From: Lachnospiraceae bacterium UBA5902
GTDB taxonomy: Bacteria > Bacillota > Clostridia > Lachnospirales > Lachnospiraceae
Direction of reading: 5' to 3'
Length of the DNA stretch: 11,762 nt
Assembly: GCA_002431865.1 (NCBI GenBank)
Contig: DJEI01000030.1
Span: 7,743 to 19,504, forward strand
Within the stretch, counting starts at the first letter, position 1. Every line of letters starts with the position of its first letter. Positions 2,736-11,739 of this stretch are shown piece after piece. The position numbers and the translations under genes are program-made. The notes below the pieces were generated by a model that ran no database searches, had not been told where the DNA came from, and was given only the letters and a program-made list of their open reading frames with translations.

Positions 2736-3830
2736 ATGGAATATAACTATAAGCATGGTGGTGATGTCTACCGAAATCCAATTGAATATGATTTTTCCAT
2801 CAACATCAATCCTCTCGGTATGCCGCTTGCGAGTATTCAGGCAGCGCACGAGGGAATCGTGCTGACCGGCAGATATCCCGATTACAAGGCGGAGCAGTTG
2901 TGCAATGCGATTGCGAAGGCGAAGCAGATACCAGCGGAGCGGATCATTCCGGGAAATGGCGCGGCTGAGCTTCTGTTTGCACTGGGACAGACACTTTCTG
3001 GAAAGGCGTTAACATTCGCGCCGACATTTACCGGATACGCGGAAGCGGTTGCAGCTGGCGGGGGTGAGATGTGCCATGCAGGATGCGAGGATGCGGATGG
3101 ACGCGTTGATGATATGAGCGGACAGGATAGGCTGCAGTTTGATTCTGAAACCGTGATTCAACGTCTGCTTGCAAAACTGGACGATTCAATCCGCCTCGTA
3201 TTCCTATGCAATCCGAACAATCCAACCGGGACATTATTTACACGGGAACAGATTCTGCGCGTGCTTGCGAAGGCGGAGGAGATGCAGGCGTATGTCTGTG
3301 TGGATGAGTGCTTTCTGCCGTTTTTGGAGGAGGAAGCAGCGTACAGTATGATGCCTTATCTGGCGAAACATCCGCGTCTGCTGGTGCTCCGTGCATTCAC
3401 GAAGATTTACTGTATGGCAGGACTTCGACTTGGGTATCTGGCTTGCGGGGATACAGAGCTGCAGTCAGAAATTCGCGCAAGGATTCAGCCGTGGAACACG
3501 TCGATTCCGGCACAGATGGCGGGTATCGCGGCATTGTCAGATATGGAATATCTGGCGAAGACATGTGAGAATCTACAGGAGGAACGCGCATATCTTGTAC
3601 CGCGTCTGCGTGAGCTGGTGACGGAGGTGTATGATGGATATGGGAATTTTCTGTTATTCCGTGATGAACCGGACTTGAAAGAGCGGATGCTTGACGTGGG
3701 AGTCCTGGTTCGTTCGTGTGATGATTTTGAGGGACTTGATGATACATATTTTCGTATCGGAATCCGTTCCCATAGTGAGAATCAGGAATTCATTCGCAGA
3801 TTGGCTAGTGTGAAAAATGTGGTAAAATAA
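2736..3830 (+). CDS. cobD: Threonine-phosphate decarboxylase CobD
   Basis: A PLP-dependent fold-type I enzyme of 364 residues that decarboxylates L-threonine O-3-phosphate to (R)-1-amino-2-propanol O-2-phosphate, the linker between corrin ring and lower-ligand loop in cobalamin. The N-terminal HGGDVYRN followed by DFSININPLG is characteristic of CobD rather than of its close relative HisC. Visible PLP-site elements are NPNNPTG at 159-165, Asp190 (in VDECFLPFL) and the Schiff-base lysine K223 in AFTKIYCMAGLRLGY. A C-terminal GIRS motif supplies the expected carboxylate-binding arginine. The ATG at 2736 is preceded by TGAGGA at 2722-2727. The gene lies between two Fic-domain genes, with cobQ and the adenosyltransferase gene downstream on the same strand, which supports the cobalamin assignment over histidinol-phosphate aminotransferase. 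Confidence 0.92.
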   Translation: MEYNYKHGGDVYRNPIEYDFSININPLGMPLASIQAAHEGIVLTGRYPDYKAEQLCNAIAKAKQIPAERIIPGNGAAELLFALGQTLSGKALTFAPTFTGYAEAVAAGGGEMCHAGCEDADGRVDDMSGQDRLQFDSETVIQRLLAKLDDSIRLVFLCNPNNPTGTLFTREQILRVLAKAEEMQAYVCVDECFLPFLEEEAAYSMMPYLAKHPRLLVLRAFTKIYCMAGLRLGYLACGDTELQSEIRARIQPWNTSIPAQMAGIAALSDMEYLAKTCENLQEERAYLVPRLRELVTEVYDGYGNFLLFRDEPDLKERMLDVGVLVRSCDDFEGLDDTYFRIGIRSHSENQEFIRRLASVKNVVK

Positions 3831-3885: not shown

Positions 3886-4599
3886 GTGAGAGGATCGCAA
3901 AGAACGCCCGGAAAAATCCGAACGACACAGAATTGGATAGGACCAAGAGGATGTACGATTGAGGGAGCAACATTTATTCCGCCAGATCCAGAAGAAGTTT
4001 ATGGATTGCTTATAAATTTATACGATTATATGAATGATGCGTTTACAGATCCTTTGTTGGTAAATGTTGCTTTATCCCATATGCAGTTTGAGACGATTCA
4101 TGCATATAAGGATGGAAATGGACGGCTTGGCAGAGCGTTGATTCCGGTACAAATGGCAATGATGGATGAAAGTACTCTGATTTTGTACATGTCAGAGATT
4201 CTCGAATTATATAAGCCATCTTATCAGAGATATCTTATGGAATGCAGAAGAGGTAATATTGCAGGATATATTAAATTCTTTTTACAGTGTGTGATTGATC
4301 AGTGCAATTCATATACTAACAAACTGGAACGAATTAAGGTGATTTACAAAGAAGATATGGAGACAATTAAGCAGATAAAAGGAAATTCGATATATAGAAT
4401 TATGCCTGTGATTATGAAGCAGATTGTGTTTAATAAAAAAGAAATACAGGATCTGTCAGGGGTATCTGTGAATGTTGTGTCAAGGATAATAGATCAGCTA
4501 GTAGATTTACATGTGATTGTACCAGATTCCACGGTTTCGAAAAAAGGATATCGATATCAAAGAATATATGAAGTGTTCGTTGGAACAAATGAGTTTTAA
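3886..4599 (+). pseudogene. Fic family protein, N-terminally truncated remnant (open 237-codon frame)
   Basis: The frame encodes the catalytic part of a Fic protein. The motif at residues 72-80 is HAYKDGNGR followed by L-G-R, with Ala-Tyr where the consensus has Pro-Phe. The segment RTTQNWIGPRGCTIEGATFIPP and the C-terminal winged-helix-like region ending in VFVGTNEF match a family that, from memory, is roughly 350-370 residues long, so about the first 110 residues are missing. Recognisable sequence continues upstream of the GTG at 3886 (NYKIILDS, from about 3862) but the frame is closed by TAA at 3823-3825, and cobD occupies the bases before that, so the missing part is not nearby. There is no ribosome binding site before 3886. 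Composition is strikingly AT-rich (18 of 60 G+C at 4261-4320, against 31 of 60 at 4981-5040 in cobQ). No stop or frameshift interrupts the remaining frame, so a short product cannot be excluded. Confidence 0.72.
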
Positions 4600-4604
4600 A
4601 TGAC

Positions 4605-4610
4605 AAGGAG
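4605..4610 (+). promoter_or_regulatory. Ribosome binding site that fixes the cobQ start
   Basis: AAGGAG lies 7 bases before the ATG at 4618. An in-frame ATG at 4600 directly abuts the Fic remnant's stop codon (4597-4599) but lies before this site and has no site of its own, so 4618 is preferred. Confidence 0.75.
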
Positions 4611-4617
4611 ACACAAA

Positions 4618-6189
4618 ATGGCAAAATCAATTATGATCCAGGGCACGATGTCCAACGCTGGAAAATCCCTCATTGCGGCAGGACTTTGCCGTATATTCAA
4701 ACAGGATGGCTACAAGGTTGCCCCATTCAAATCCCAAAATATGGCGTTGAATTCCTATGTGACAAGTGAGGGTCAGGAGATGGGACGAGCACAGGTTGTA
4801 CAGGCGATGGCAGCAGGCGTGGAACCATCTGTGCGGATGAATCCGATTCTGCTCAAGCCGACAACCGACATGGGTTCGCAGGTGATCGTGCAGGGACAGG
4901 TTGTCGGAAATATGCGGGCGATGGATTATTTTGCGAAGAAAAAAGAATATATTCCGGTGATTCGGGAAAGCTACGAGCAGCTTGCCGCAGATCATGATAT
5001 CATTGTGATCGAGGGCGCTGGAAGTCCTGCGGAGATCAATCTGAAACAGGATGATATCGTGAATATGGGAATGGCGAAGATTGCAGATGCACCGGTGCTT
5101 CTGGTTGGCGACATCGACCGCGGAGGTGTATTTGCGCAGCTGATCGGTACGGTAATGCTCCTGGAACCGGAGGAGCAGGCACGAATCAAAGGCCTGATCG
5201 TGAACAAATTCCGGGGCGATAAGAGAATATTAGATCCGGGCATCACGATGCTGGAAAAACGTGCCGGAAAGCCGGTGCTTGGCGTGGTACCGTATGCAGA
5301 TGTCGATATCGAGGATGAGGATTCTCTTGCAACGAGCCTGGAAGAGACACATGTACAGGCGGAGATTGATGTGGCTGTGATCCGGTTCCCGCGTATTTCA
5401 AATTTTACAGATATGCAGGCGCTCAGCATGGAATGGGATGTGTCGGTGCGCTATGTGACAAAGCCGTCAGAGCTTGGAGAACCGGATGCCATTTTGCTTC
5501 CGGGCACTAAGAACACGATTCAGGATCTGCTCTGGCTGCGGGAAAGCGGACTGGAAGCAAAGATTACACGGCTGGCGAAGAAGGGAACAATCGTGTTCGG
5601 TATCTGTGGCGGGTATCAGATGCTTGGCGAAGCTTTGATGGACCCATTGCAGACAGAGAGTGCGCTTGGAAGTGTGCGAGGCATGGATTTGCTGCCGGTT
5701 ACAACCGTGTTCGAAGAAGAAAAACAGTTGGAGAACCGCACATACCGGATTGGAATGCTGGATGGAGAGTTTGCATCGCTTAGTGGGGAAAAAGTCGCTG
5801 GTTATGAGATTCATATGGGGCGGACGGAAATTGCGGGCAGCAATGTGACATCACAGCAATCGGATACGAAAATCATTGCCGGTGATTCCGTATACACCAT
5901 GAAAACTACAACCCCAATTTATCCTTTCATCAGCGATTCAGCAGGAAACATACTTGGCTACACGGCAGGAACTGTGGCGGGCAGTTATATCCATGGCATA
6001 TTCGATGAGGTTGCATTCCGCGAGGCATTTATCAGGCTGTTGTATGCACGCAAAGGGAAAACTAGGGGAGAAAGTCAATATTTGACCATGCAGGAATACC
6101 GGGAGCAGCAGTTTGACAAGCTGGCACAGATTCTGCGGGAAAGTCTTGATATGGAGAAAATCTACGAAATTCTGGGACTTTGCAAATGA
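4618..6189 (+). CDS. cobQ: Cobyric acid synthase CobQ (glutamine-hydrolysing)
   Basis: A 523-residue cytoplasmic amidotransferase that uses ATP and glutamine to amidate the b, d, e and g carboxyls of adenosylcobyrinic acid a,c-diamide, giving adenosylcobyric acid. The N-terminal dethiobiotin-synthetase-like half begins with the nucleotide-binding GTMSNAGKS at residues 9-17, followed by APFKSQNMALNS, a CobQ hallmark, and later DIDRGGVFAQ. The C-terminal type 1 glutaminase-like half has the nucleophile C330 in FGICGGYQMLG and the catalytic-type His459 in GSYIHGIFD. Length is usual for CobQ. The start follows the AAGGAG at 4605-4610. The gene begins 18 bases after the Fic remnant ends, so the remnant is transcribed with it unless an unseen promoter intervenes. 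cobO follows after 76 bases. Confidence 0.96.
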   Translation: MAKSIMIQGTMSNAGKSLIAAGLCRIFKQDGYKVAPFKSQNMALNSYVTSEGQEMGRAQVVQAMAAGVEPSVRMNPILLKPTTDMGSQVIVQGQVVGNMRAMDYFAKKKEYIPVIRESYEQLAADHDIIVIEGAGSPAEINLKQDDIVNMGMAKIADAPVLLVGDIDRGGVFAQLIGTVMLLEPEEQARIKGLIVNKFRGDKRILDPGITMLEKRAGKPVLGVVPYADVDIEDEDSLATSLEETHVQAEIDVAVIRFPRISNFTDMQALSMEWDVSVRYVTKPSELGEPDAILLPGTKNTIQDLLWLRESGLEAKITRLAKKGTIVFGICGGYQMLGEALMDPLQTESALGSVRGMDLLPVTTVFEEEKQLENRTYRIGMLDGEFASLSGEKVAGYEIHMGRTEIAGSNVTSQQSDTKIIAGDSVYTMKTTTPIYPFISDSAGNILGYTAGTVAGSYIHGIFDEVAFREAFIRLLYARKGKTRGESQYLTMQEYREQQFDKLAQILRESLDMEKIYEILGLCK

Positions 6190-6265: not shown

Positions 6266-6814
6266 ATGATACAGATCTATCATGGAGATGGAAAAGGAAA
6301 GACGACAGCCGCTGTAGGACTGGCTGTACGCGCGGCTGGAAATGAGCTTCCGGTGTTATTCGTGCAGTTTTTGAAGGATGATACATCTGGTGAAACCGCC
6401 ATGCTGCAAAAGCTTGGCATCGAGACATTGCATGCCCCACAGATGTATGGATTTGTGAGCTGGATGAATGAGGAGGAGCTTGCAAAGACACGCGCGTATT
6501 TTGCAGATATGCTGGCGCAGGTCGGGACCTGGATTAAAAAACAGAAAAAACAGCATGACAACCAGCAGGAGAAAAAAACAGTTGCGGCGGTTGTTGTTTT
6601 GGATGAAGTTTTGCATGCTGTAAAGTATGGGTTACTTGATGAGAGTACATTGATGGAAGTGCTGTCGTGCAATCAGGCGCAGATCGAATTCATTCTGACT
6701 GGGCGGAATCCATCGGACAAGCTTCTGGCACTTGCGGATTATGTCACGGAAATGAAAAAAGAAAAGCATCCGTATGAGCAGGGAATTTCTGCCAGAAAAG
6801 GGATAGAATTCTAA
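6266..6814 (+). CDS. cobO: Cob(I)yrinic acid a,c-diamide adenosyltransferase (CobA/CobO/BtuR type)
   Basis: A 182-residue ATP:corrinoid adenosyltransferase that transfers the 5'-deoxyadenosyl group of ATP to Co(I) of the corrin ring. The P-loop GDGKGKTTAA sits at residues 7-16, close to the N-terminus as usual, since the family's flexible N-terminal extension is often short in Firmicutes. Later motifs are VVLDEVLHAVKYGLL (Walker B-like acidic pair), ILTGRNPSDKLLALADYVTEM, and the C-terminal KHPYEQGISARKGIEF typical of the family. A lysine- and glutamine-rich stretch (KKQKKQHDNQQEKK) is inserted before the Walker B region; relatives are variable there. AAAAGGAGA precedes the ATG by 5 bases. 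With cobQ and cobD upstream it forms a partial adenosylcobalamin pathway. Confidence 0.94.
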   Translation: MIQIYHGDGKGKTTAAVGLAVRAAGNELPVLFVQFLKDDTSGETAMLQKLGIETLHAPQMYGFVSWMNEEELAKTRAYFADMLAQVGTWIKKQKKQHDNQQEKKTVAAVVVLDEVLHAVKYGLLDESTLMEVLSCNQAQIEFILTGRNPSDKLLALADYVTEMKKEKHPYEQGISARKGIEF

Positions 6815-6864: not shown

Positions 6865-8397
6865 ATGGAAGCACATCAGTTACCTTCGGGAACGTATCTG
6901 GAACAGAACAAATATTACATTGAGCGGGTACTTGGAGATGGCGGATTTGGAATTACGTATCTTGGGTATGATGTGAAGCTGCAGCGGAAGGTTGCAATCA
7001 AAGAATTCTATATGCGCGGGTACTGCTACCGGAATCCCGGAGATCCAAATGTTTACACCGAGGCAGGCGAAAAACGTGAGAGCTTCGAGAAGATGAAACA
7101 GCAGTATATTGAGGAAGGTCGTGTGCTGGCTGCCTTGGGAGAGCAGCCTGGAGTGGTAAATGTCTACACGTTTATTGAAGAGAACAACACAGCTTACCTT
7201 GTCATGGATTTTGTGGAAGGACAGTCGCTGGATGCGTATGTGAAAGGCCGGGGAGGCAGGTTATCTGTGTCCGAGACTCTGGCAATCATGCGTCCGGTTA
7301 TCCGTGCGTTGGCGGGTGTACATAAACGAGATGTGATTCATCGGGATATCAGCCCGGACAATATCATGATCACACATGACCGAAAGGTGAAACTGATTGA
7401 TTTTGGCGCTGCGCGAATGTATGGAAATTACAATTATCTCCGCGTGCAAAAGGGTGGATATTCACCAATCGAACAGGTGACACCGGGAGCACAGATTGGA
7501 CCGTATTCCGACGTATATGCGCTTTGTGCGACGATGTATAATTGCATGACCGGGGTGAAGGTGCCGCGTGCCGTCGATCGGGCAAAGCAGGACAGACTTG
7601 TGCCGCCATCTGCGATGGGACTTGTGATCGCACCGCAGGAGGAAGCTGTTTTGATGCAGGGACTTGCAATTGATCCGGCACAGAGGTATGCAAATGCGGA
7701 GCAGTTGTATCAGGCATTGTACGAGACGTCGATGGAGCAAACAGGAAGCACATCCATGATGACGCACAGTGGAATATCTCAGATGTTGTCGGATATGCAG
7801 GCAGACCGGAAAAAGAAGGAACATAGAAAAAAGCAGATTGGTATGGTCTGTGGTATTGTTCTGTTGTTAGGTATTGGGACTTTTGCATATTTTCAGAGGA
7901 AGCAGAATGGGGATGAGACAACGGCTGCATCCGAGGCAACGACACAGCAGATCTTACAGACGGAGACAGACGTGAGTCCGGTGGAGGAAGTGGATTGCAC
8001 GGCTTATGCGCAGGAGTTTTATGATTTATGTGCGAAGCAGCACGAAGCAAAGGGGAATACTCTGACACAGAGGGATGAATTTACAGTTGCTGCAAAAGAG
8101 ACAGCGGCAAAAAGCGCGGCGTTGGTATATACCAGCATGGATGAATTAAATGCCGCGTTAACGGAGCTTGGCAATCAGGCGATTGCCACATATAAAATAC
8201 CGAATACCGGATGGGTGACATATACATTTTCTTTAAAGGAAGATGTCACGATGATAAAAAAGGCATTGGATACTTATATTGCACAGATGAACGAGGAAAA
8301 TCAGGGGACCGTGGATCTGGATAATTGTGCGTATCTTGGCGTCAGCGTGGCGCGTGCGCAGGATGGTACATATTTCTGGGCAGTATTTTATCAATAA
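6865..8397 (+). CDS. Membrane-anchored Hanks-type serine/threonine protein kinase
   Basis: A 510-residue kinase. The kinase domain covers about residues 15-290: glycine loop GDGGFG at 24-29, ATP-binding K46 in VAIKEF, HRDISPDN at 159-166, DFG at 179-181, and SPIEQ at 200-204 where most kinases have APE. Ser163 replaces the lysine of the usual HRDLKPEN; I believe this form is common in a clostridial subgroup. After a charged stretch (DRKKKEHRKKQ) comes a single membrane helix at about 325-343, so the kinase is cytoplasmic and residues about 345-510 lie outside. This outer part has no PASTA repeats. Its pattern, ending in YLGVSVARAQDGTYFWAVF, faintly resembles a CAP/SCP domain. AGGAG at 6854-6858 supports the ATG at 6865. 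A hybrid histidine kinase gene follows after 47 bases with no terminator between, suggesting cotranscription. Kinase identity is firm; substrate and signal are unknown. Confidence 0.92.
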   Translation: MEAHQLPSGTYLEQNKYYIERVLGDGGFGITYLGYDVKLQRKVAIKEFYMRGYCYRNPGDPNVYTEAGEKRESFEKMKQQYIEEGRVLAALGEQPGVVNVYTFIEENNTAYLVMDFVEGQSLDAYVKGRGGRLSVSETLAIMRPVIRALAGVHKRDVIHRDISPDNIMITHDRKVKLIDFGAARMYGNYNYLRVQKGGYSPIEQVTPGAQIGPYSDVYALCATMYNCMTGVKVPRAVDRAKQDRLVPPSAMGLVIAPQEEAVLMQGLAIDPAQRYANAEQLYQALYETSMEQTGSTSMMTHSGISQMLSDMQADRKKKEHRKKQIGMVCGIVLLLGIGTFAYFQRKQNGDETTAASEATTQQILQTETDVSPVEEVDCTAYAQEFYDLCAKQHEAKGNTLTQRDEFTVAAKETAAKSAALVYTSMDELNAALTELGNQAIATYKIPNTGWVTYTFSLKEDVTMIKKALDTYIAQMNEENQGTVDLDNCAYLGVSVARAQDGTYFWAVFYQ

Positions 8398-8444: not shown

Positions 8445-10088
8445 ATGGATAAAAACGGGGATTTTAAGGAATCGTCAAATGACAAATTGAATCATGCCAT
8501 CGCATCTATGTGCGATGAATGGTTGTTGATTGAGGAGATTGATCTGGAAGAGGACACGTTTGAAATTCTGCACGATAATTTGAAGAAGCAGGGGATTCCG
8601 ATACCACGGAATTGCAGTTACAGCCAGCAGAATTTTGAGATACAGGAGCTGGTTGCACCAGAATATCAGGAATATCGATATAATTTCTGTGGGCGGGATA
8701 ATCTGCGTAAACTTTTGAAGCACAGCGATACTCAGGAATGTGAGTATATTATATGCACAGGAGAAAATGTATGGCGCAGAGATGTGTTCAAGGTAGTGGA
8801 ATGGAAAGATGAGGAACCGAAGATTTTAAACTGGTTCCATATGAATATTGACAGCAAGAAGTCTGCGGAGTTAAAGCAGCGTCAGGCGATTCAGGATGCG
8901 TATCTGCAAAGTGAGCAGGCGTATGCAATCAAAAATATGTATCTCAAGCGGCTCAATGAGGAATTGCAGATGCCGATCAATATGATTGTCGGAAATGCAT
9001 CCGTTGCGCGGACATTTGTCACGAATCCGGAACGTGTGACCGCGTGTATCGAGGAGATTTCCCTGTCAGCAAAGGCAATCTTCCGTATGGTGCGTCAGAT
9101 GATCAATACAGACGCGATACAGCAGGGGACGACGCTGTTACAGATGCAGCAGACATCTGTAGAAAATCTGTGGAGAAATACGCTTGATATTGTCAAGCCA
9201 TCCATGCGGCTTCGGCGACACACAATGCATCTGGACATGGCACAGCTTTACCATCGCAATGTGATTGGAGATGTGGAGAAGCTGCAGCAGATATTATTAA
9301 ATTTATTGCAAAATGCAATTGACTACACGCCATATCGGGGTGAGATATTTTGTGGGATCAAAGAGAAACCGATGGACAAAACGACCGGATACTTTGAATT
9401 TTATGTGCAGGACAATGGAGTCGGTATGTCTGAGGAGTTTCGGAAAATTATGTTCGAGCCATTTGCAAGAGAGCATTCAGACCGGATTGAGCGTGTGGAA
9501 GGCTCTGGCTTGGGGCTGATGATCGTGCAGAATCTGGTTCGGCTGTTGGATGGAGAAATTGAGGTTGAGACGAAGACCGGTTGTGGGACGAAGATTACAG
9601 TTGGAATGAAACTGCGGTATGGAACAGAGTCCAAGGATGCCGCAGGAGAGATTCAGTATTTTGACTGGAGCGATTGGGAAGCTGCGTGTGAGAGGAAAAC
9701 AATGTTTTCCGGACAGCATGTGCTGGTTGTAGATGATAATGATATTACCGCTTCGATTGAGGAGCAGATTTTGACAGAACATGGACTTGCCGTCGACCGT
9801 GCAATCAATGGTGAGGATGCAATCTGTATTTTTGAACGGTCACCAGTGCATTACTATGATCTGATATTGATGAATATGGGATTGCCGTTTATGGATGGTT
9901 ATGCAACAACGATGGGCATACGACAGCTTCGCGAGGATGGAAGGACGGTTCCAGTGATTGCGTTGTCTTCCCGGTTATATGCAGACGATGAGTTTCATGG
10001 AGAAGAATATGGAATGAAAGCATGGCTTCAAAAACCTGTTAGTGCAAGGAAGCTGATGGAAGCCGTGTGCAAATATATATCAAATTAA
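8445..10088 (+). CDS. Hybrid sensor histidine kinase/response regulator lacking both phospho-acceptor residues
   Basis: A 547-residue soluble protein with no membrane segment. Residues ~25-145 form a PAS-like sensor region (inferred from pattern). Residues ~160-225 form a HisKA-like helical pair; in the H-box (LNEELQMPINMIVG) the phosphorylated histidine is replaced by Glu172, five residues before the conserved Pro177. The ATPase domain (~270-395) looks complete: N-box around N290, G1 box D323-NGVGM, G2 box GSGLGL at 353-358. The C-terminal receiver (~425-545) keeps D430-D431, S508 and K530, but the acceptor aspartate is Asn477 (codon AAT at 9873), four residues before the conserved Pro481. 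The protein should thus bind ATP but cannot carry out a normal His-Asp relay; it may act through partner binding, as other pseudo-histidine kinases do. It follows a Ser/Thr kinase gene and precedes an acyl-CoA synthetase gene. The start codon is not fully certain. Confidence 0.9.
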   Translation: MDKNGDFKESSNDKLNHAIASMCDEWLLIEEIDLEEDTFEILHDNLKKQGIPIPRNCSYSQQNFEIQELVAPEYQEYRYNFCGRDNLRKLLKHSDTQECEYIICTGENVWRRDVFKVVEWKDEEPKILNWFHMNIDSKKSAELKQRQAIQDAYLQSEQAYAIKNMYLKRLNEELQMPINMIVGNASVARTFVTNPERVTACIEEISLSAKAIFRMVRQMINTDAIQQGTTLLQMQQTSVENLWRNTLDIVKPSMRLRRHTMHLDMAQLYHRNVIGDVEKLQQILLNLLQNAIDYTPYRGEIFCGIKEKPMDKTTGYFEFYVQDNGVGMSEEFRKIMFEPFAREHSDRIERVEGSGLGLMIVQNLVRLLDGEIEVETKTGCGTKITVGMKLRYGTESKDAAGEIQYFDWSDWEAACERKTMFSGQHVLVVDDNDITASIEEQILTEHGLAVDRAINGEDAICIFERSPVHYYDLILMNMGLPFMDGYATTMGIRQLREDGRTVPVIALSSRLYADDEFHGEEYGMKAWLQKPVSARKLMEAVCKYISN

Positions 10089-10104: not shown

Positions 10105-11739
10105 ATGCCAGTTACAGAGTACCTAGAGAGAAATGCCAGATTGTACCCGGATGAGGTTGCACTGGTGGAGCTGAATCCGGATGAGCCGGATACGAGAAGA
10201 ACTTCTTGGAAGGAGTTTGAACTGATACAGCCATCGAGATTTGAACCATATCGAAGAGAGATTACATGGAGTGTCTTCGATGAGAAGGCAAACCGGTTTG
10301 CAAACATGCTGATTGGAAGAGGCATCAAGAAGGGTGATAAGGTTGCGATTTTGATGTACAACTGTCTGGAGTGGCTGCCGATCTATTTCGGTGTCTTGAA
10401 GACAGGAGCTATCGCGGTACCGTTTAATTTCCGGTATGATGCGGATGAAATCTTATACTGTGCAGAGCTGGCAGAGGTTGATATGATCGTGTTTGGTCCG
10501 GCGTTCATCGGACGAATCGAGGCAAATGCAGAGCGCCTTTCCAAGGGTAGACTGCTGATTTACGTCGGGGACAACTGTCCGGATTTTGCGGAGAGCTATC
10601 ACCAGCTTGTGGCAGATTGTTCGAGTCATGCACCGAATGTAGAGATCACAGATGATGATTTTGGAGCGATTTATTTTTCATCAGGAACGACAGGATTTCC
10701 GAAGGCAATTTTACATAAACACCAGAGTTTGACGCAGGCAGCGGAGATGGAGCAGAAGCATCACGGCACGAGCCGGGACGATACGTTCCTGTGTATCCCG
10801 CCGCTGTACCATACGGGTGCGAAGTTCCATTGGATGGGAAGTCTGGTGGCAGGCAGCAAGGCGGTGCTCTTAAAGGGTACAAAGCCGGAGACGATTCTCT
10901 CCGCGGTATCGAGTGAGCATTGTACGATCGTCTGGCTGCTCGTTCCGTGGGCGCAGGATATTCTGGATGCGCTGGATCGTGGCGACCTGAAGTTAGAGGA
11001 TTATGAGCTTTCCCAGTGGCGGCTCATGCATATCGGCGCGCAGCCGGTACCGCCATCACTGATCAAGCGTTGGAAAGAATATTTTCCACATCACCAGTAC
11101 GATACGAACTACGGACTTTCCGAGTCAACCGGACCGGGCTGTGTGCATCTGGGTGTGGAGAATATACATAAGGTCGGTGCAATCGGGGTGCCGGGCTATC
11201 GTTGGGAATGTAAGATTGTGGACGAGAACGGCGTGACGGTACAACAGGGCGAAGTCGGAGAGCTCTGTGTCAAGGGACCGGGCGTGATGACCTGTTATTA
11301 CAGAAATGAGGAAGCAACCGCAGAAACGATCAAGGACGGCTGGCTGTTCACCGGAGATATGGCAAGACAGGATGAGGATGGATTCTATTTCCTTGTTGAC
11401 CGGAAGAAGGATGTCATCGTCAGTGGAGGCGAAAATATCTATCCGGTACAGATTGAGGATTTTCTGCGCAAGCATGACAAGATCAAGGATGTGGCAGTCA
11501 TCGGACTTCCAGACCGCCGGCTGGGTGAGAAGACAGCCGCTATCATCGAGATCAAGGACGGCATGACATGTACAGAGGAAGAAATCGAGAACTTCTGCCT
11601 GGAACTACCAAGATATAAGAGACCAAAGCAGATTATTTTCCATGAGATTCCTCGAAATGCGACCGGAAAGATCGAGAAGCCGAAGCTGCGTGAGATGTAC
11701 GGCGCAGACAAGCTGGTAGAGAAGGAAAATGAGGCATAA
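10105..11739 (+). CDS. AMP-forming acyl-CoA synthetase (class I adenylate-forming enzyme)
   Basis: A 544-residue ANL-superfamily ligase that activates a carboxylic acid as acyl-AMP and transfers it to CoA. The core motifs are present: the phosphate-binding loop SSGTTGFPK at 192-200, the A5 motif YGLSEST at 336-342, TGD with D418, the hinge region D432-R-K-K, SGGENIYP, and the C-terminal catalytic lysine K522 in NATGKIEK. An N-terminal insertion (about residues 33-50, ELIQPSRFEPYRR) matches a clostridial subgroup I recall as annotated long-chain-fatty-acid or generic acyl-CoA ligase. Substrate cannot be told from sequence. AAGGAG at 10087-10092 precedes the ATG by 12 bases, slightly long. It begins 16 bases after the hybrid kinase gene, so the two are probably cotranscribed. 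Codon use is GC-richer than in the Fic genes. Confidence 0.93.
   Translation: MPVTEYLERNARLYPDEVALVELNPDEPDTRRTSWKEFELIQPSRFEPYRREITWSVFDEKANRFANMLIGRGIKKGDKVAILMYNCLEWLPIYFGVLKTGAIAVPFNFRYDADEILYCAELAEVDMIVFGPAFIGRIEANAERLSKGRLLIYVGDNCPDFAESYHQLVADCSSHAPNVEITDDDFGAIYFSSGTTGFPKAILHKHQSLTQAAEMEQKHHGTSRDDTFLCIPPLYHTGAKFHWMGSLVAGSKAVLLKGTKPETILSAVSSEHCTIVWLLVPWAQDILDALDRGDLKLEDYELSQWRLMHIGAQPVPPSLIKRWKEYFPHHQYDTNYGLSESTGPGCVHLGVENIHKVGAIGVPGYRWECKIVDENGVTVQQGEVGELCVKGPGVMTCYYRNEEATAETIKDGWLFTGDMARQDEDGFYFLVDRKKDVIVSGGENIYPVQIEDFLRKHDKIKDVAVIGLPDRRLGEKTAAIIEIKDGMTCTEEEIENFCLELPRYKRPKQIIFHEIPRNATGKIEKPKLREMYGADKLVEKENEA

Follow-up and report, generated by a model that had tools for sequence, protein, structure and literature searches.

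Evidence for a family of pseudo-histidine kinases within a Lachnospiraceae genus, with a conserved ATP site and recurrent loss of the receiver aspartate

Introduction

What is left for a hybrid histidine kinase to do when both of its phosphate acceptors have been replaced? A kinase without the histidine of its dimerisation helices (DHp), or a conserved substitute for it, cannot relay phosphate in the usual way. The question is raised by a gene in an 11,762-nucleotide stretch of DNA from Lachnospiraceae bacterium UBA5902 (assembly GCA_002431865.1, contig DJEI01000030.1, positions 7,743 to 19,504 of the forward strand), the whole of which is here called the window. The initial annotation of this gene, made from the sequence alone, described a hybrid histidine kinase with glutamate (Glu172) in place of the phospho-accepting histidine and asparagine (Asn477) in place of the phospho-accepting aspartate of the receiver. 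We compared its product, referred to below as pHK (pseudo-histidine kinase), with its relatives. Our best reading is that pHK belongs to a family of pseudo-histidine kinases within a Lachnospiraceae genus.

Results

The pHK protein consists of a PAS-like domain, the DHp helices, an ATPase (CA) domain, a linker and a receiver (Table 1). Pfam matched HATPase_c at residues 275-390 (7.7e-25) and Response_reg at residues 426-541 (1.7e-17), and gave no match to HisKA (PF00512) at E-values up to 0.1. Set against a canonical hybrid kinase of the HisKA type, pHK has neither the His acceptor nor the phospho-Asp, but does have a HATPase_c domain with the residues of the N, G1 and G2 boxes. The kinase fold is thus retained, the acceptor is gone and the gene is under selection, as is characteristic of a pseudo-histidine kinase.

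The H-box SHDIRTP of His-bearing relatives aligns to NEELQMP in pHK, which places Glu172 in the phospho-His column and bears out the initial annotation. Sequence alignments to chains of the Protein Data Bank (PDB) place the H-box identically. A structural alignment, which might have pointed to a different acceptor, puts residue 172 on Y550 of DivL and on H260 of HK853 or at most one residue away, depending on the chain (a position computed from the alignment ranges). The protein searches (best 120 of 1894, best 120 of 236 and best 120 of 840 matches) yielded at least 46 relatives that belong to the same clade as pHK. Among the matches listed, His occurs in none of the 46 clade relatives readable at this column, which have Glu in 32 cases, Gln in 9, Lys in 3 and Thr in 2. 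The 40 proteins P0001-P0040, which are 44-95% identical to pHK, all lack His; P0041 (48%) is cut short, unreadable at the column and not counted. In the protein of genome G021 the column holds Glu, and in its five relatives P0123-P0127 it holds Gln. By comparison, His is present in 360 of the 363 other proteins of the same set with a readable kinase core, the remainder showing Asn, Gly and one gap.

A potential concern is that the altered column reflects a sequencing error or decay. This was rejected: conversion of a His codon (CAY) to Glu takes two base changes, so that a single read error cannot yield Glu172, and all 46 readable relatives are non-His. A shifted acceptor within DHp was also rejected, there being no conserved His column in residues 140-235 of the 35 clade rows of alignment A3, which contains 36 His-bearing rows besides; P0016 has a His at +1 of the lost one that is missing in the other rows. 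The suggestion that Glu172 mimics a charged state found no support. The column contains Glu, Gln, Lys and Thr, and because it tolerates acidic, basic and neutral residues, opposite charges among them, a phosphomimic reading is disfavoured.

The source genome also encodes a second His-less hybrid kinase of 1454 residues (L198:4908-9272, minus strand, contig C34). Its H-box reads MSNEIKTP, with Asn for His, its receiver Asp is present (VFMDLSMP), and its long N-terminal sensor appears beta-propeller-like from a reading of the sequence. A Mucispirillum record (L077:2584-5154, plus strand) contains a hybrid kinase with Asn at the His column (VSNDMRTP), adjoining a His-bearing sister gene.

In a tree of 117 kinase cores, made by a quick method without bootstrap and with the His column omitted, the 23 non-redundant clade members form one branch (SH-like approximate likelihood-ratio test, SH-aLRT, 98.6). 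The His/non-His state changes twice on this tree, once for the clade and once for the lone Asn of L077. The final tree omits P0003 and P0032 as probable chimaeras, two rows of L095 and L101 for their long branches, and L029, which has a gap at the His column; L029, L077 and L101 lie outside the clade and are not among its 23 rows. The two probable assembly chimaeras each come from one short contig, P0003 having pHK fused within the receiver to a LuxR-type regulator and P0032 having it fused to a PF01416 (TruA-like) domain.

Within the genus, pHK was found in 4 of 37 genomes at E-values up to 1e-100, many of the 37 being incomplete, and the remaining matches were His-bearing kinases. A survey of 397 genomes of the family (334 genera; E-values up to 1e-105), scoring the three best candidates per genome, found the window's own protein as the sole clade member and 11 other matches that were all His-bearing; a second draw starting from G021 added G021 only. 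All matches listed by a contig scan were at most 33% identical, and a scan of viral sequences gave seven partial matches, none of them close. The G021 protein corresponds to public record P0122, named 'response regulator', from a Lachnospiraceae bacterium. Because a search with profile A5 did not list the members P0122-P0127, the clade may be larger than counted.

We also examined the conservation of the ATP site. The protein itself has N290, D323, G325, G327, G353, G355 and G357, and the N, G1 and G2 boxes, along with D430/D431, S508 and K530 of the receiver, are all present as initially annotated. N290, D323, G325, G327, G355 and G357 are found in 23 of 23 clade lineages, which range down to 34% identity. 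Of the five parts of the protein, the CA domain has the highest proportion of invariant columns in alignment A2, 35 of 133. Whole-gene ratios of nonsynonymous to synonymous substitution (dN/dS, by the NG86 method) among genomes G000, G035 and G006 were 0.062, 0.092 and 0.075. For the two pairs that include G000, the ratio was 0.033 and 0.081 in DHp, 0.107 and 0.151 in the receiver, and 0.54 and 0.46 in the linker; in the CA domain it was 0.036 for one pair, with synonymous divergence (dS) saturated in the other. The comparison with G021 gave 0.34, with dS near 2. No match listed contains an internal stop codon. The retention of the six core residues in every lineage and the low whole-gene dN/dS (0.06-0.09) indicate that pHK is not decaying. 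Together with the absence of His from 46 of 46 relatives, they uphold the initial view of a conserved pseudo-kinase as opposed to simple decay. Because the ATP-site residues are kept and DHp and CA are constrained, these sequence data suggest a continuing role for nucleotide binding and for the dimer core.

The receiver presents a different pattern. The motif MNMGLP of pHK aligns to MDxxxP of its relatives, confirming that Asn477 occupies the phospho-Asp column. Of the 39 readable receivers among P0001-P0040, 38 have Asp and one (P0036) has Asn. Across the clade, Asn is found at this site in 5 of 23 rows (pHK of the window, P0036, G021, P0123 and P0125) and Asp in 18. The tree shows at least five switches between Asp and Asn; P0123 and P0125 are close together in it, and loss cannot be distinguished from regain. 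The joint loss of both acceptors had been proposed as one selected pair. The His half of this proposal stands, the residue being gone clade-wide, but the Asp half does not, since Asp is kept in most lineages and in P0001, which is 95% identical to pHK and whose cluster has 732 members; homologues are not consistent at the Asp column, although Asn recurs in it.

Counting only the last receiver of each protein, the 93 His-bearing rows of the tree have Asp in 91 cases, are unreadable in 2 and have Asn in none. In P0110, a His-bearing kinase, Asn occupies the Asp column of the internal (first) receiver, which weighs against taking this count to mean that Asn never occurs in His-bearing kinases. 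In a profile alignment in which some rows may be misaligned, internal receivers or other profile matches show Gly at this column in L069, L084, L087, L089, L093 and L097, Glu in L049 and Ile in L061. It would seem from these sequences that internal receivers of His-bearing two-receiver kinases also lose the Asp, the last receiver keeping it.

Taken by itself, Asn477 may stem from one miscalled base or from variation between strains, the genome being a draft (estimated completeness 87.7%, 111 contigs). The presence of Asn at the same column in four further lineages nevertheless favours a real recurrence. All five replacements in the clade are Asn, and since Asn is one transition from Asp (GAY), the choice of this residue may be set by mutation bias. 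Other changes in the receiver affect the acidic pair, which includes a non-acidic residue in P0015, P0033 and P0040, and Lys530, which P0038 has lost. Slippage of this kind would be expected if phosphorylation of the receiver became less important after the kinase lost its ability to provide phosphate. In the sub-clade P0123-P0127, Arg or Gln takes the place of Pro at D+4 of the receiver, four of five members have Asp-Glu as the acidic pair, and in DHp Gln stands for His and DxxT is kept.

From the order of strands and helices in the model, we read residues 1-143 as a PAS-like fold. No credible Pfam family was found for this domain even at E-values up to 5, a result by which a PAS fold is not ruled out, and fold searches covered residues 1-150 hardly at all. 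All 23 clade lineages share four residues of the domain, W110, R112, D113 and H132; the corresponding residues in the 36 His-bearing rows of A3 are mostly Tyr, Ile, Ala or Gly, and Ser. W130 is likewise present in all 23, yet is not specific to the clade. The W110/R112/D113/H132 signature suggests a ligand or contact common to the clade.

The surroundings of the gene were compared among the pHK-bearing genomes (Table 1). In G000, G035 and G006 the order is cobD-like gene, cobQ, cobO, Ser/Thr kinase, pHK and acyl-CoA synthetase, and in the window the gaps from cobO onward are 50, 47 and 16 bases. The Ser/Thr kinase has HRD and DFG motifs and, from a reading of its sequence, one transmembrane segment. 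In G021 a longer cluster ends with the cobD-like gene, cobQ, cobO and pHK, the last of these lying 14 bases past cobO with no Ser/Thr kinase between them. All four pHK-bearing genomes examined (G000, G035, G006 and G021) therefore have pHK within one gene of cobO, the cobD-like gene upstream of cobQ and cobQ upstream of cobO; the Ser/Thr kinase stands between cobO and pHK in three of the four. The genus has 11 further genomes with cobO. None of them showed a pHK gene in the region retrieved around cobO, where contigs L162, L166 and L168 stop within about 1.3 kb past the gene, or genome-wide at E-values up to 1e-100. As a lead, the adjacency to cobO may point to a role in cobalamin use; the gene order could also be explained by shared ancestry within one genus.

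Table 1. Features of the window and of the pHK gene, in window coordinates.
Feature	Position	Strand	Details
cobD/hisC-like aminotransferase	2736..3830	+	Pfam Aminotran_1_2; name cobD inferred from context
cobQ, cobyric acid synthase	4600..6189	+	Pfam CbiA, GATase_3
cobO/btuR, corrinoid adenosyltransferase	6266..6814	+	Pfam 3.5e-53
Ser/Thr protein kinase (STK)	6865..8397	+	Pfam Pkinase 1.6e-32; 47 bp upstream of pHK
Pseudo-histidine kinase (pHK) gene	8445..10088	+	ATG start, 547 aa; PAS-like domain, DHp, ATPase (CA), linker, receiver
N-terminal PAS-like domain	8445..8873	+	Residues 1-143; PAS fold read from model; carries W110, R112, D113, H132
DHp dimerisation helices	8874..9230	+	Residues 144-262; from model and structural matches
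Codon GAG, Glu172, phospho-His column	8958..8960	+	From alignment with relatives
HATPase_c (CA) domain	9231..9629	+	Residues 263-395; Pfam 7.7e-25; core ATP-site residues kept
Receiver domain	9717..10085	+	Residues 425-547
Codon AAT, Asn477, receiver Asp column	9873..9875	+	From alignment with relatives
Acyl-CoA synthetase-like AMP-binding enzyme	10105..11739	+	Pfam AMP-binding 1.3e-73; 16 bp downstream of pHK

Rfam gave no match in the five loci searched. Promoter-like sites numbered 7 against a chance mean of 9.2, which is no excess, and terminator-like sites 7 against 4.4, a slight excess. The acyl-CoA synthetase shares 98.7 and 98.9% identity with the copies in G035 and G006, with dN/dS of 0.006-0.012; by contrast, pHK, the Ser/Thr kinase, cobO, cobQ and the cobD-like gene are 77-91% identical. 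Fic-domain genes lie at 1825-2706 and 3886-4599, on either side of the cobD-like gene. The second encodes 237 residues compared with 391 in G006. At the corresponding position of G035, neither gene was found.

Discussion

We put at about 0.5 the probability that pHK relays no phosphate and acts as an ATP-gated regulator under sensor control, binding a partner that is either a kinase or a response regulator. Because it has neither the DHp His nor a conserved substitute, pHK cannot relay phosphate normally. The PAS-like domain would bind a signal, the conformation of the DHp-CA core would depend on ATP binding or turnover, and the partner would dock to the dimer helices or the receiver, as in DivL-CckA/DivK or RetS-GacS. 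In the lineages that keep Asp, the receiver may still be phosphorylated by another kinase or an Hpt protein; in the window genome and the four other Asn lineages, phosphate input to the receiver is predicted to be gone. The source genome contains a 342-aa frame with an Hpt domain.

Several findings weigh against such a regulator. DivL binds ATP weakly (PMC4211667), but the clade keeps the core ATP-site residues, so that DivL serves imperfectly as a model and pHK might act catalytically in trans. The HisKA phosphatase motif (Asp or Glu at +1 and Thr at +4 of the lost His) occurs in 9 of 23 lineages, P0123-P0127 all among them, and fits a phosphatase for part of the clade. Some ATP-site positions do vary, N286 being Asp in P0033 and P0037, N324 being Asp in P0123-P0127 and G353 being Ala in G021. 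Finally, whole-gene dS was near saturation in the pairwise tests (1.6-2.1), and the AF2 model of pHK is of middling confidence (pTM 0.42).

Ranked next, as a tentative possibility, is a mixed dimer in which pHK acts as a working half-kinase, its ATPase domain phosphorylating in trans the His of a putative canonical partner. Autophosphorylation in trans is established for kinase dimers. The invariance of the core ATP-site residues and the large invariant share of the CA domain favour this arrangement, as do the 15 HisKA matches of the source genome, 14 of which have His in the H-box; the changes at N286 or N324 in some members speak against it.

A phosphatase-only regulator, the DHp of which would dephosphorylate a response regulator without kinase activity, ranks after trans catalysis and is improbable. 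In its favour are the motif in nine lineages and the finding that the His is dispensable for HisKA phosphatase activity (PMC12632262). The same paper argues that kinases without the His do not in general serve as phosphatases, and the motif D/E-x-x-T/N is gone in 14 of 23 lineages, pHK included (E173, M176). Because the motif is lost in pHK and kept in nine lineages, the function of the clade may not be uniform.

Changed chemistry ranks below the phosphatase and strikes us as quite improbable. The core would phosphorylate Ser, Thr or another substrate, for which plant ethylene receptors and phytochromes provide precedents, or would itself be a substrate of the adjacent Ser/Thr kinase. The gene for that kinase, with its catalytic motifs, holds the same place in three genomes, but it is not adjacent to pHK in G021. 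Last and strongly disfavoured is a relic, that is, a drifting inactive paralogue, which receiver erosion in parts of the clade (Asn, acidic pair, Lys530 and D+4 Pro) would fit but which the low whole-gene dN/dS, the lack of stops in the matches listed, the shared gene order of three genomes and the ATP site kept down to 34% identity make very improbable.

The ATP-gated regulator can be elaborated into a stepwise conversion to a phosphate-free switch, an elaboration we regard as unlikely. The His would have been lost once in the ancestor and the Asp up to five times, the PAS-like sensor would read a corrinoid-related signal through the W/R/D/H residues, and ATP binding would be the output controlling the adjacent cobalamin metabolism. 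The clade in any case provides a natural series, with His lost throughout, Asp in 18 lineages and Asn in 5, the phosphatase motif in 9 and not in 14, and the ATP core in 23 of 23. With this series one can test what in a two-component kinase still matters without phosphotransfer, and whether ATP binding by itself can carry a signal.

Pseudo-histidine kinases and pseudo-receivers are known kinds, with DivL, ChrS and CCNA_03265 as precedents. Within the literature searched, DivL of Caulobacter crescentus is the pseudo-histidine kinase worked out in detail. DivL is not known to have a receiver, and RetS of Pseudomonas aeruginosa keeps its His and has a membrane sensor, both of which differ from pHK. 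A PDB sequence search, which matched 285 sequences, placed DivL (3e-17) below canonical kinases such as HK853 (3e-22), and the nearest non-clade relatives of pHK among the matches listed are hybrid kinases at about 31%. The weak ATP binding of DivL (PMC4211667) contrasts with the conserved ATP-site core of the clade. The Caulobacter hybrid kinase CCNA_03265 has lost the His and kept the receiver Asp (PMC11481889), and so resembles 18 of 23 clade lineages; it is from a different organism, and unlike it the other five have lost the Asp as well. The laboratory-evolved ChrS pseudokinase of Corynebacterium glutamicum is inactive as a kinase and exerts its effect by forming a heterodimer with a paralogue (PMC9491836). 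ChrS has a frameshift in its ATPase domain, whereas this domain is the best conserved part in the clade. Pseudo-receivers likewise have no phospho-Asp; here such a receiver is joined to a pseudo-kinase, in part of the clade only. For comparison, PMC12632262 reports the Asp missing in 2.0% of PF00072 domains and the His in 0.9% of HisKA domains. The open-licence literature searched gave no description of this clade, and the family and its double-loss pattern look new. What sets it apart from these known systems is the combination of an ATP site kept throughout with a repeated second loss in the receiver.
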